A DNA stretch of 64,000 nucleotides. It comes from an uncultured Spirochaetaceae bacterium (GTDB lineage Bacteria > Spirochaetota > Spirochaetia > Sphaerochaetales > Sphaerochaetaceae). Of this stretch, positions 19,451 through 22,993 are shown piece by piece. How positions within the stretch are numbered: the stretch's first letter is position 1; each line of letters begins with the position of its first letter. Below the pieces are notes generated by a model. The model worked only from the letters and a program-made list of their open reading frames with translations, was not told the DNA's origin and did no database searches. Location of the stretch: contig CALXYM010000008.1 of the NCBI GenBank assembly GCA_944392965.1, positions 1 through 64,000 of the forward strand, read 5' to 3'. The position numbers were made by a program, and so were the translations under genes.

Positions 19451-21370
19451 ATGTCCCATACCGATATGAACAAACTTGACACACTCCCCTATTATTCGGG
19501 GCCACTTGGTTTTGAACTGAAAGGGAATGAGACGATATTCCGGCTATGGGCACCTACTGCAAAAGAGGTCACACTCAACTTATATAAGGATGGACTGTTC
19601 TCTACCGCATATAAAGAGGCCTACCTAGACAGATACCAGGATGGACACTGGGAGGTGAGGATAGGAGAAAACCTCGAAGGAACATATTATGATTTCATCA
19701 TCTCTACCCATGACAGGGAGTATCAGAGCATAGACCCTTATGCAGTGACTTCGGGAGCAAACGGGAAAAGGGCAATGGTTCTGGACCTGAAGAAAACCGA
19801 TCCGGAAGGATGGGCAGAGGACAAGGCCCCCAAGAGGGAAGCAGAGGACATCATATATGAGATACACGTCAAGGATTTCACCTATCAGAAATTCTCAGGG
19901 ATAAGCAACCGTGCAAGGGGGAAATTCATCGCTCTTACGGAAAAGGATACGCATCTGACGTTCGATGACACTTTTCCTACGGGGATTTCCTATCTGAAAA
20001 GCCTTGGCATTACACATGTGCAGCTGATGCCGATATTCGACTATGGCTCAGTAGATGAGATGGGCTCTGATGACGAGTTCAACTGGGGATATGATCCTGA
20101 GAACTATAATGTTCCTGAAGGTTCCTACTCAACTGACGCAGAGAAGGGAGAAGTAAGGGTAAGAGAGCTGAAAGAGATGATCAAAGCCCTGCATGAGAGT
20201 GGGCTGAGGGTCATAATGGATGTCGTATACAACCATACATACCGTCTGGACAGCCCGCTCTTCAGGATTGAGCCCTGGTATTTTTACCGTCGCAACAGGG
20301 ACGGAAGCGCGTCAAATGGCTCAGGTTGTGGAAATGATATCGCCTCAGAGCGCCCAATGGTCCACCGTTACATCCTCGACTCGGTCCTGTACTGGGCACG
20401 GGAATACCATATAGACGGGTTCCGTTTCGACCTCATGGGCTTGATAGACACCAGGCTCATGAATGATATCAGGGAAAACCTGGACAGGTTATATGGAAAA
20501 GATGAGAAGCTGATATATGGAGAGCCTTGGGCTGCTGGAGGAACAGCTGTAAAAGAAGGGTTCCAGCTCGCCGATAAGAACGCAATGACCCTGCTGAGTA
20601 ACGGAATAGGCGCATTCTCCGATTCAACTAGGGATCTTATAAAAGGAAGCAATTTCGACTCCCGATCAACCGGCTTCGTCAACGGAGGAGCCGTAGAGAT
20701 GAACCTGTTAAGACATGCGGTGGCAGGATGGATGAATGGGGACTGGCATTTCAGAACACAGACTGCGAATCAGACAATACAGTATGTGTCGAGCCATGAT
20801 GACTGGACCCTTTGGGACAAGCTCAAATTCACCTGTGATGATAAAGAGGATTTCCTCATTCTTGACGAGAAAACGGTAAAAGCGAATAAAGCTGCCGCCG
20901 CGATGTATTTCACTATGCAGGGCAGACCTTTCATGCTCTCCGGAGAGGAGGCGGCAAGGAGCAAGATCGGAGTCAAGAATTCCTATAATACACCCCTCTT
21001 CATTAACAGGTTCGACTGGACGAGGACAAAAGACGCAAAGGAACTTGTCGAGTATTATAAAGGTCTCATCGCCCTGAGAAAAAAGATGAAGGCATTCACT
21101 GACAAATCGGAAAAAGCGATTGAAAGGATAAAGGAATTTACACTGCCATATAAGAAAACAGCCTTGATAACACTAGACAATTCGGGCAGCAACAACTACT
21201 CTACCCTTCTTCTGATATACACCAATGAGGATAAACGCATTGAGCTGAGCCTTGATGGGGAATACGACCTCATCCTCGATCCCGAATGTTCCAACAGGCT
21301 ATCTTCTCCTATCAAGGTGAAAGACAGCCTTAAGCTCGATGCCCCTGCGGTATATCTGCTTGGCTGTTAA
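19451..21370 (+). CDS. pulA: Type I pullulanase
   Basis: The 639-residue GH13 alpha-1,6-glucosidase debranches pullulan, starch or glycogen. It has an N-terminal CBM48-like domain (FELKGNETIFRLWAPTAKEVTLNLY, about 18-110) and the pullulanase signature NWGYDPENYNVPEGSYSTD (about 214). The GH13 regions are MDVVYNHTY (I), DGFRFDLMG with the Asp nucleophile (II, about 325), IYGEPWAAGG with the acid Glu (III, about 355) and VSSHDDWTLWDK (IV). There is no signal peptide, so it acts in the cytoplasm on imported maltodextrin or glycogen. Its last four bases overlap the convergent rhomboid gene. Confidence 0.93.
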   Translation: MSHTDMNKLDTLPYYSGPLGFELKGNETIFRLWAPTAKEVTLNLYKDGLFSTAYKEAYLDRYQDGHWEVRIGENLEGTYYDFIISTHDREYQSIDPYAVTSGANGKRAMVLDLKKTDPEGWAEDKAPKREAEDIIYEIHVKDFTYQKFSGISNRARGKFIALTEKDTHLTFDDTFPTGISYLKSLGITHVQLMPIFDYGSVDEMGSDDEFNWGYDPENYNVPEGSYSTDAEKGEVRVRELKEMIKALHESGLRVIMDVVYNHTYRLDSPLFRIEPWYFYRRNRDGSASNGSGCGNDIASERPMVHRYILDSVLYWAREYHIDGFRFDLMGLIDTRLMNDIRENLDRLYGKDEKLIYGEPWAAGGTAVKEGFQLADKNAMTLLSNGIGAFSDSTRDLIKGSNFDSRSTGFVNGGAVEMNLLRHAVAGWMNGDWHFRTQTANQTIQYVSSHDDWTLWDKLKFTCDDKEDFLILDEKTVKANKAAAAMYFTMQGRPFMLSGEEAARSKIGVKNSYNTPLFINRFDWTRTKDAKELVEYYKGLIALRKKMKAFTDKSEKAIERIKEFTLPYKKTALITLDNSGSNNYSTLLLIYTNEDKRIELSLDGEYDLILDPECSNRLSSPIKVKDSLKLDAPAVYLLGC

Positions 21371-21987
21371 CGCCTTCTGAAAGGATTGATCCTCAGCCTT
21401 ATCATCACATATAGAAGTCCGACCAGAAGCCCAAAAAGATGGGTCACATGGCTTATTCCATCGGAGATGAAGGATGAGGCGAACTCCATTACAAAATAAA
21501 CTATGACAAGGGTGAGTGCCCTCATCGGAATAAGTCCGAAAACGAACACGACGGCATTTGGAAAGAAAATCGCGAAGAGGAGCATTACCGCATAGAGGGC
21601 ACCACTTGCACCGATTAAGAACACAAAATACTGTCCACTCATGAAGTAGAACAGGAAGGAGAGCACTCCAGCAAGGGTTCCACAGAGAAAATAGTAAAGA
21701 AGAAACTCCTTACTGCCTATTCTCCGCTCCAGGATCGTTCTAAAAATCAGAAGTCCCAGCATGTTTGAAAAGAGATGAGAGATACTCCCATGTACAAACA
21801 TGTAAGTGACAAAAGTATAACAGCTGCTCGGCTCGGAGAGAATCCGTAATGGCATCATCGCCATCATATAGTTCAAATACGGATATACGTAATTTGAAAT
21901 GAAGAAAACGATGATATTCGCAACCACGATGATTATGCTGGCATTCCAATACGCGTATTGGAATTTCCGGTTCAGAATATTCGGCAT
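21367..21987 (-). CDS. Rhomboid-family intramembrane serine protease
   Basis: The 206-residue protein has six membrane helices. It carries the loop motif YMFVHGSISHLFSNMLGLL (oxyanion side, about 62-80), the catalytic Ser in FLIGASGALYAVML (about 125) and the catalytic His in ISHVTHLFGLLVGLLY (about 180). It cleaves membrane proteins within the bilayer; the substrate is unknown. No Shine-Dalgarno site; a TAATTT box ends seven bases before the ATG. Confidence 0.88.
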   Translation of the reverse strand: MPNILNRKFQYAYWNASIIIVVANIIVFFISNYVYPYLNYMMAMMPLRILSEPSSCYTFVTYMFVHGSISHLFSNMLGLLIFRTILERRIGSKEFLLYYFLCGTLAGVLSFLFYFMSGQYFVFLIGASGALYAVMLLFAIFFPNAVVFVFGLIPMRALTLVIVYFVMEFASSFISDGISHVTHLFGLLVGLLYVMIRLRINPFRRR

Positions 21988-21993
21988 GAGAAC

Positions 21994-21999
21994 AAATTA
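21994..21999 (-). promoter_or_regulatory. TAnnnT box of leaderless rhomboid gene
   Basis: On the minus strand TAATTT, six bases (GTTCTC), then ATG 21987. Confidence 0.4.
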
Positions 22000-22043
22000 A
22001 CTATTTTTCCTCTAACAGGTCAAGAATGAAAAAGAATGTATAC

Positions 22044-22060
22044 TTGGCACGTATATTGCT
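22044..22060 (+). promoter_or_regulatory. Sigma-54 promoter of small RNA A
   Basis: TTGGCACGTATATTGCT is a full match to the -24/-12 consensus (TTGGCACG-N4-TTGCT). GG (22046-22047) and GC (22058-22059) are separated by exactly ten bases. Transcription should start near 22071. Confidence 0.85.
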
Positions 22061-22070
22061 ATGAAATAAT

Positions 22071-22149
22071 TACAACAGAGCAAAACAGTTTTTTTCAACC
22101 TCCTTTTTTAGCATTTCGGCACCTTTTTAAATGAGGTGCCCTTTTTTTT
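22071..22149 (+). ncRNA. Small RNA A, sigma-54-driven, with anti-Shine-Dalgarno motif
   Basis: A predicted transcript of about 79 nt begins 12 bases after the -12 GC and ends at an intrinsic terminator (GGCACCT, AGGTGCC, then eight T at 22142-22149). The 5' part carries ACAGAGCAA and a T-rich stretch, followed by CAACCTCCTT (22096-22105). ACCTCCTT is the anti-Shine-Dalgarno sequence of 16S rRNA. No open reading frame of any length lies inside. It shares its 5' domain with RNA B just downstream. The likely mode of action is base pairing to ribosome binding sites; targets are not known. No named RNA family recognised. Confidence 0.7.
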
Positions 22150-22170
22150 GAAACGCAAAAAATTCTCACT

Positions 22171-22185
22171 GTGAAATTTTTTCAC
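22171..22185. promoter_or_regulatory. Inverted repeat between the two small RNAs
   Basis: GTGAAATTTTTTCAC: six-base arms around TTT, about 45 bases upstream of the -24 box of RNA B. It is a candidate binding site for the activator that sigma-54 needs, although closer than the usual 80-150 bases. Confidence 0.35.
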
Positions 22186-22230
22186 ATCGTAAAACCCCTT
22201 TATTACAGGATAATTCCTTAAAAAGCATAC

Positions 22231-22247
22231 TTGGCATGGGATTTGCA
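22231..22247 (+). promoter_or_regulatory. Sigma-54 promoter of small RNA B
   Basis: TTGGCATGGGATTTGCA has GG (22233-22234) and GC (22245-22246) ten bases apart, and matches the consensus at all conserved positions. Transcription should start near 22258. Confidence 0.85.
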
Positions 22248-22257
22248 TAATAAGTAA

Positions 22258-22369
22258 TACAGAGCAACAGTTTTTTCACCTCCTTGTAAATATGTGTGAA
22301 AAACAAATAAGAATGGTAGCATCGCCGACACTCTCTCCCATCCCAACAGTCGGCGATGCTGTTTTTTTT
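22258..22369 (+). ncRNA. Small RNA B, sigma-54-driven, anti-Shine-Dalgarno motif in a hairpin loop
   Basis: The predicted transcript is about 112 nt. It starts with ACAGAGCAACAG like RNA A. TTTTTCAC (22272-22279) can pair with GTGAAAAA (22296-22303), leaving a 16-base loop (22280-22295) that begins CTCCTT. TCACCTCCTT (22276-22285) equals the 3' tail of 16S rRNA. The 3' end is a 12-bp perfect stem AGCATCGCCGAC/GTCGGCGATGCT (22318-22329, 22349-22360) with a pyrimidine-rich 19-base loop, then eight T (22362-22369). An open frame from 22292 runs through it into rlmE but has no ribosome site and crosses the terminator, so it is not a gene. Confidence 0.72.
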
Positions 22370-22381
22370 CTCCTTTTAGGC

Positions 22382-22387
22382 TATTAT
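22382..22387 (+). promoter_or_regulatory. TATTAT box of leaderless rlmE
   Basis: TATTAT, six bases (CTAGGC), then ATG 22394, starting only 12 bases after the T-run that ends RNA B. Confidence 0.5.
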
Positions 22388-22393
22388 CTAGGC

Positions 22394-22993
22394 ATGGCGA
22401 ATTCAAGAAGAGATAAAGCGGATTCTTATACACAGAGGGCACATAAGGAAGGATATCCTGCGCGCAGCGTCTATAAACTCGAAGAGATAAATACAAAGGA
22501 CAAGATAATAAAGCCGGGTGACAGCGTACTTGATGTGGGAGCTGCCCCTGGATCATGGACTCTTTATACGCACAGAATGCTCATAAAGGGAAAAGGCCGG
22601 ATAGTCTCATGTGACCTCAATCCCCTATCTCTTGATCCCGTACCTCCTACTGTAACGGAGATAACAGGAGACGCTTTCTCAAAGGAGATAAGAGAACAGC
22701 TTACCGCCCTCGGCCCCTATGATGCCATAATTAGTGATGCAGCTCCGATGACGACAGGAAACAGGACCGTCGACACATCCAGAAGTGAACACCTTGCAGA
22801 GGAGGTCCTTCGTCTTGCCATGGAACAGCTCAAAGTGGGAGGAAACCTCGTAATAAAGATCTTTCAGGGAGGAGGAGAGGCGGAGATACTGAAACAGATG
22901 AGGATGCTTTTCACAAAAGCAAAGGCCTTCAAACCGAAGGCCTCGCGTGATGACAGCTTTGAAATCTTCCTCATAGGAATGGGCAAGAAATAA
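22394..22993 (+). CDS. rlmE: 23S rRNA 2'-O-ribose U2552 methyltransferase
   Basis: The 199-residue FtsJ/RrmJ-family methyltransferase begins with the rRNA-binding region RRDKADSYTQRAHKEGYPARSVYKLEEI. The SAM site VLDVGAAPGSWTLYTH is at about 48-63, and the KDKE-type tetrad is visible: Lys in ARSVYKL, Asp in IISDAAPMTTG, Lys in LVIKIFQGG and Glu in SFEIFLIGMG. It methylates U2552 in the A-loop late in 50S assembly. ATG 22394 matches the family start and follows TATTAT by seven bases. Confidence 0.93.
   Translation: MANSRRDKADSYTQRAHKEGYPARSVYKLEEINTKDKIIKPGDSVLDVGAAPGSWTLYTHRMLIKGKGRIVSCDLNPLSLDPVPPTVTEITGDAFSKEIREQLTALGPYDAIISDAAPMTTGNRTVDTSRSEHLAEEVLRLAMEQLKVGGNLVIKIFQGGGEAEILKQMRMLFTKAKAFKPKASRDDSFEIFLIGMGKK

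Follow-up and report, generated by a model that had tools for sequence, protein, structure and literature searches.

Predicted tandem sigma-54-type small RNA genes with exposed anti-Shine-Dalgarno motifs in the Sphaerochaetaceae

Here, we describe two tandem non-coding transcription units of sigma-54 type, A (~78 nt) and B (~111 nt), located within positions 22044-22369 of the analysed window (the whole 64-kb stretch of DNA, contig C8 of a 2.43-Mb spirochaete genome that is 95% complete). We have very little doubt that A and B belong to one conserved family of sigma-54-type RNAs. The promoters, the family relationship, its conservation, an exposed anti-Shine-Dalgarno (anti-SD) motif and a palindrome between the units were established computationally. 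The interpretation that we favour, with reasonable though limited confidence, is that A and B are sigma-54-controlled, trans-acting small RNAs (sRNAs) that block translation of envelope-protein mRNAs; their transcription, the activator, the target class and the repression are all inferred.

Promoters and architecture of the two units

The features of the locus are as follows.

21367..21987, minus strand: rhomboid-like membrane protein gene, a conserved neighbour outside the RNA units
22044..22059, plus strand: -24/-12 (sigma-54) promoter of unit A, TTGGCACGTATATTGC (pattern match; box conserved in alignment A3)
22072..22149, plus strand: unit A, predicted small RNA of ~78 nt (promoter position, terminator, genus-wide conservation)
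22075..22088, plus strand: conserved 5' domain of unit A, ACAGAGCAAAACAG, with the U-run at 22089-22095 coming next
22098..22105, plus strand: anti-SD motif of unit A, ACCTCCTT (CCTCCTT invariant in A3)
22118..22149, plus strand: intrinsic terminator of unit A with 8 T (terminator scan)
22170..22186, no strand assigned: palindrome TGTGAAATTTTTTCACA, which may be bound by an activator (enhancer-binding protein) acting on both promoters, without binding data
22231..22246, plus strand: -24/-12 (sigma-54) promoter of unit B, TTGGCATGGGATTTGC (pattern match; box conserved in the alignment)
22259..22369, plus strand: unit B, predicted small RNA of ~111 nt (genus- and family-wide conservation)
22259..22270, plus strand: conserved 5' domain of unit B, ACAGAGCAACAG (alignment)
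22271..22303, plus strand: hairpin of unit B, UUUUUUCAC ... GUGUGAAAAA, presenting the anti-SD motif in or next to its loop (folding)
22277-22285, plus strand: anti-SD motif of unit B, CACCTCCTT, in the hairpin 22271..22303
22319..22369, plus strand: terminator hairpin of unit B with 8 T (folding; stem changes in relatives keep the pairing)
22331..22344, plus strand: exposed C-rich loop CTCTCTCCCATCCC in the terminator of unit B, a second candidate pairing site
22394..22993, plus strand: rlmE/ftsJ-like gene, a conserved neighbour outside the RNA units

The only exact matches to TTGGCAYN5TTGC in the window are those at 22044-22059 and 22231-22246, while dinucleotide shuffles of the window contain a mean of 0.03 matches and none of 100 shuffles reaches two. 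In both promoters the GG-GC distance is ten bases. Taking the C of GC as -12 and adding 12, the predicted +1 falls at 22071 for A and 22258 for B, and the next base begins ACAACAGAGCAA (22072) and ACAGAGCAA (22259), respectively. A search of 21950-22450 for sigma-70-like promoters gave none. An earlier, sequence-only reading of this DNA had proposed two -24/-12 promoters with this spacing, each followed at the right distance by a non-coding unit ending in a terminator with eight T, and both proposals were borne out. The sequences that it reported as common to the two units, namely ACAGAGCAA, CAG plus a T-run and CxACCTCCTT, are indeed present in both, and the last of these is an anti-SD sequence.

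In alignment A3, AGAGC, AACAG and the first five U of the U-run are invariant. Every unit contains CCUCC(UU), the anti-SD sequence, which is predicted to be unpaired, with a mean unpaired probability for CCUCC of 0.83 in 64 A-type units and 0.73 in 57 B-type units. The layouts of the two types are different: in type A the anti-SD segment is single-stranded and the terminator plain, while type B has a hairpin that displays the anti-SD motif and then a terminator, whose loop CUCUCUCCCACCCC is nearly constant among relatives and whose stem changes in sequence with pairing kept. Each unit has one CCUCCUU site, to which unit B adds its different, C-rich loop (unpaired probability 0.99 in 53 units). 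AGAGCAA is predicted to be partly paired in the folded RNA (unpaired probability 0.45-0.63). Compared with shuffled sequences, folding is far stronger for unit B (minimum free energy z = -4.1) and moderately stronger for unit A (z -1.9). The terminator of unit B was missed by a simple terminator scan because its loop is too long, and RNAalifold on the B alignment recovered scarcely more than a portion of the terminator stem because MAFFT misaligns the stems.

Directly after the terminator of unit B, TATTAT lies a few bases 5' of the rlmE ATG (window 22375-22394); rlmE may be nearly leaderless, and some relatives are arranged similarly.

Distribution of the family

A BLASTN search with the whole locus detected relatives in 24 genomes out of 60, each belonging to the same genus. 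The RNA-only pattern AGAGCAA ... CAGTTTTT ... CCTCCTT, applied without the promoter to 84,980 species genomes, matched at least 117 stretches, and the matches listed, pooled with the BLASTN loci, give at least 129 distinct spirochaete units. Among the matches listed and the BLASTN loci, TTGG(C/T)A-N8-GC stands upstream of 128 of 129 spirochaete units, the remaining one having GT at -12; the GG-GC spacer is variable and the promoter elements are constant, with 11-17 nt between the -12 element and AGAGCAA in nearly all of these units. The other pattern matches listed (the titles shown are non-spirochaete, mostly Clostridia) are mostly antisense of gene starts of the form AAGGAGG...ATGAAAAAACTGnTTGCTCT, that is, of a Shine-Dalgarno sequence followed by the ATGAAAAAACTGnTTGCTCT start of a signal-peptide gene.

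A sequence-only model (R1), built from 59 units, was used to search 395 genomes of the class. It matches 33 of 35 genomes of the same genus (Ca. Ornithospirochaeta) as well as most sampled genomes of other genera of the family, including Sphaerochaeta. Outside the family, it gave five weak matches, in families f17 and f3, and nothing in the remainder of the 395 genomes. The three weak matches that were inspected retain the sigma-54 box and UUUUUCAUACCUCCUUU and have lost AGAGCAACAG; in f17 a C-rich terminator loop is retained as well. These divergent homologues from two other spirochaete families (L362:8355-8406, L363:10614-10673 and L364:1921-1973) have a different 5' end. The family thus spans several genera of Sphaerochaetaceae.

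Most genomes carry one or two copies; the cultured Sphaerochaeta halotolerans 4-11, for instance, has two units (L109). In one Sphaerochaeta genome (G278), four B-type copies stand in tandem (L361, G278:C1:2228043-2229183), each with its own -24/-12 promoter, and an upstream element, TGTTACTTTTTTTCACAG, is common to all four. Neither the units of the window nor the loci of ten relatives matched Rfam, where no credible family was obtained at the gathering threshold or at E up to 10.

The sequence-only reading would have been refuted by the absence of rpoN from the genome or by promoter boxes that are not conserved in relatives. The own genome contains rpoN once, the gene is present in 99 of 101 family genomes, and the boxes are conserved, being almost invariant across the family. 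The proposal that the locus holds a tandem pair of sigma-54 small RNAs, both from a single family, is supported in that all of its computational predictions are fulfilled (rpoN, box, shared 5' domain, terminators and no Rfam family), expression being inferred.

Palindrome and candidate activator

The palindrome pattern TGTGMAN5TKCACA has a single match in the 2.43-Mb genome, at 22170-22186. This position is 3' of the promoter of unit A and 5' of that of unit B, so an enhancer there could serve both. Two half-sites of the palindrome TGTGAA-N5-TTCACA, with at most one mismatch, were found in 105 of 149 related promoter upstream regions as compared to 2.3% of shuffled sequences; their spacing is most often 5 bases and in Sphaerochaeta often 23. 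A palindrome that is unique in the genome points to a dedicated sigma-54 activator, in the absence of binding data.

The own genome encodes four clear sigma-54 activators. Among them, EBP1 (G000:C24) combines a receiver, an AAA and a Fis-type helix-turn-helix domain, and its gene follows a histidine kinase gene. Where the activators of sRNA-bearing genomes were clustered, EBP1 was among them, and the g32 genomes, in which no sRNA was found, contain only diverged forms of it; on these grounds EBP1 is the best candidate activator, which is not proof. It is likewise present in some genomes where no sRNA was detected (G353, G375), and the activator tree left out the divergent C37-type and PspF-type activators. 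Whether EBP1 activates both units is in our view an evenly balanced question, its identity as the activator being inferred. Within L243:1676-9642, the EBP1 and histidine kinase genes lie after a MacAB-like efflux set and before a periplasmic-binding-protein transporter set.

Other sigma-54-like promoters in the own genome, all without the palindrome, precede two genes resembling pspA, one resembling hsp20 and one of the sigma-70 family (L169, L170, L175 and L176, on G000:C1, C13 and C18), which suggests a stress-related sigma-54 regulon. Upstream of the hsp20-like and sigma-70-family promoters are TGACACAT/TGTGTCA-like repeats.

Predicted targets and proposed mode of action

Target scans were performed on stretches of three genomes, ~0.83 Mb of the own genome (G000; 767 predicted starts, ~1/3 of the genome), 0.4 Mb of G035 and 0.7 Mb of G225. 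In all three, predicted pairing is strongest with the starts of secreted and solute-binding proteins, and AGAGCAACAGUUUUU, conserved 5' of the anti-SD motif, complements early codons of signal-peptide genes. Pairing in G000 favours signal-peptide genes with an AUC of 0.69 for A and 0.65 for B, and solute-binding-protein-like genes, of which there are only 10, with an AUC of 0.88 and 0.80, respectively. The signal-peptide effect has an AUC of 0.69 (A) and 0.59 (B, p 0.08) in G035 and 0.72 in G225, where a single sRNA was tested. After regression on the Shine-Dalgarno score, its p values are 3e-6 (G000), 0.05 (G035) and 7e-9 (G225); within ATGAAA genes they are 5e-4 (G000) and 8e-6 (G225), and the effect is not significant in the small G035 sample.

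The starts of signal-peptide genes are A-rich and Leu-rich, and part of the preference therefore comes from the U-run and the anti-SD motif alone. Permuting the 5' domain while leaving these two elements intact gave a mean signal-peptide pairing as good as the original in no more than 1, 2 and 0 of 40 permutations, so the 5' domain adds modestly to the preference. The three genomes share an almost identical sequence and do not count as independent draws. The top-20 energies are not unusual, since 6 to 21 of 40 permutations of the 5' domain were as good. In eight genomes, near-perfect complements showed no clear excess over a reversed-pattern control. Target ranks were not conserved among 256 orthologous pairs (Spearman rho 0.07), and 6 pairs were in the top decile on both sides where 6.2 were expected.

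The best orthologous target pair, at -24.9 and -28.9 kcal/mol, is a periplasmic-binding-protein-like gene with PF12683, which is predicted to pair clearly in two blocks, the anti-SD motif with AGGAGG and AGAGCA...CAGUUUUUUUCA with AUGAAAAAAGC...UUGCUCU. Several of the genes ranked highest encode solute-binding proteins according to Pfam (SBP_bac_1/8, DctP, Bmp). We incline slightly towards secreted and solute-binding proteins as the main target class; this is an inference, and individual targets are not established. Among all genes scanned, the strongest predicted pairing is that of a small outer-membrane beta-barrel gene in the Sphaerochaeta-like G225 (L355:13579-14208; -41.3 kcal/mol, best of 631 starts). 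As a conserved target this gene was rejected, as its homologues elsewhere pair only at about -9 to -27.

In the mechanism that we propose, sigma-54 RNA polymerase would make both A and B, transcription being inferred, after activation by an enhancer-binding protein that probably acts via the palindrome between the units; the best candidate is EBP1, the response regulator of the histidine-kinase/response-regulator pair at G000:C24. The sRNA would then pair in two blocks, with CCUCCUU covering the Shine-Dalgarno sequence of the mRNA, AGAGCAACAG-U6 covering the start codon and first codons (AUGAAAAAA and then Leu codons) of signal-peptide genes, and the mRNA spacer bulged between them. Such pairing would keep translation from starting on the mRNAs of many proteins that are secreted or bind solutes, repression again being inferred. 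That the sRNAs act by covering translation starts through CCUCCUU is probable. A more specific version, which remains doubtful, is a dedicated envelope-response circuit of the Sphaerochaetaceae, in which a two-component sigma-54 activator has the sRNA genes as its only direct targets and the first 35 nt of the sRNA serve as a general-purpose antisense to "Shine-Dalgarno + AUG-Lys-Lys + Leu codons", lowering synthesis of secreted proteins and lipoproteins as a class through recognition of the start of signal-peptide coding and not of single genes.

The most deeply kept element is the anti-SD motif, as distant homologues retain UUUUUCAUACCUCCUUU and not AGAGCAACAG, and no individual target set is conserved. 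Both facts would suit a broad translation dampener, in which the anti-SD motif by itself would mask ribosome-binding sites on numerous abundant mRNAs and there would be no target class. We consider this unlikely, as AGAGCAACAG is strictly conserved within the family and contributes to the signal-peptide preference. Feedback on the activator is suggested by the start of EBP1 (G000:C24:5976, L243:5976), to which, out of 767 starts, A (-37.2 kcal/mol; next -29.0) and B (-28.0) alike have their strongest predicted pairing; the sRNAs would then mainly repress the mRNA of their own sigma-54 activator in a Qrr/LuxO-type loop, just as NfeR1, an anti-SD sRNA, silences ntrBC (PMC10746234). However, the EBP1 pairing is at background energies in G002 and G010, both of which bear the sRNA, and 42 sRNA/EBP1 pairs have a median percentile of 0.16 with no signal outside the genus. 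Very strong in the own genome but not kept in orthologues, including those of several close relatives, feedback was dismissed as the mechanism of the family and is quite unlikely to be the main function; the pairing may be a lineage-specific extra.

Multi-copy, sigma-54-driven RNAs can also act as protein-sequestering decoys, as CrcZ does, and A and B might titrate an RNA-binding protein in the manner of CrcZ or CsrB. The units, however, have no repeated GGA or A-rich motif and their conserved motifs are antisense to translation starts, which makes a decoy very improbable. A crude and incomplete motif scan, which is weak evidence, revealed no Hfq-like sequence in the scanned parts of three genomes. 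Unit B lies ~25 nt 5' of rlmE and many genera retain the arrangement rhomboid, sRNA, rlmE, as would be expected of cis-acting leaders or attenuators of rlmE. But each unit has its own terminator, B precedes A in G032, the units are ~960 bp apart in G035 and on different contigs in G014, and in several rumen genomes the RNA is near other genes; the leader function was rejected on this variable gene order, and we give it almost no credence.

In action, the sRNAs read as trans-acting blockers of translation starts would be most like LhrC and NfeR1, to which they are unrelated by sequence, and in promoter logic most like GlmY and Qrr. In Listeria, envelope stress acts through a two-component system to induce the LhrC1-5 sRNAs, which are present in several copies and bind the Shine-Dalgarno regions of mRNAs for surface and solute-binding proteins, oppA and tcsA among them (PMC5880928). 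For A and B, pairing of this kind is only a predicted, class-level enrichment; they differ from LhrC in promoter type, phylum and 5' domain, and the covariance score against LhrC (RF00616) is 16.8 bits (gathering 110, E 7.2). NfeR1 (alpha-r14) of rhizobia has exposed anti-SD motifs (CCUCCUCCC in three hairpins), targets that include periplasmic ABC-transporter components and a link to an NtrC-type regulator, its promoter lacking a sigma-54 signature and being repressed by NtrC (PMC10746234); A and B fail the three-hairpin CCUCCUCCC criterion. CJnc230 (FlmE) of Campylobacter is an RpoN-dependent sRNA (PMC11187230), but is processed from the flgE transcript and has a flagellar function.

The comparison with GlmY/GlmZ and Qrr made in the sequence-only reading holds for the promoter arrangement and fails for the sequence. 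Several Qrr copies occur per Vibrio genome, each with its own sigma-54 promoter. The present family shares this multiplicity, as in the tandem copies of G278, but has no Rfam match to Qrr, and its predicted pairing with the activator, itself a candidate, is seen only in part of the genus. GlmY is made from a sigma-54 promoter under the histidine-kinase/response-regulator pair QseE/QseF (PMC7073468), a form of control for which we have only a candidate here. GlmY acts via RapZ on GlmZ/glmS, unlike the mode proposed for A and B, which do not match the Rfam models of GlmY or GlmZ.

The identity of the anti-SD motif, the C-rich loop of unit B, the palindromic candidate activator site and the extension of the family over several genera are new beyond the sequence-only reading. 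The spirochaete sRNA literature that we found concerns mainly Borrelia and Leptospira; no description of any small RNA in Sphaerochaeta was found in the open-access subset of the literature, which does not exclude an earlier description elsewhere. A nearly invariant sigma-54 promoter across a bacterial family provides an immediate, testable output of sigma-54 in free-living and gut spirochaetes, and Sphaerochaeta can be cultured, which makes direct tests possible. If the proposed recognition of signal-peptide starts is true, the family would be an example of RNA regulating secreted proteins by class.
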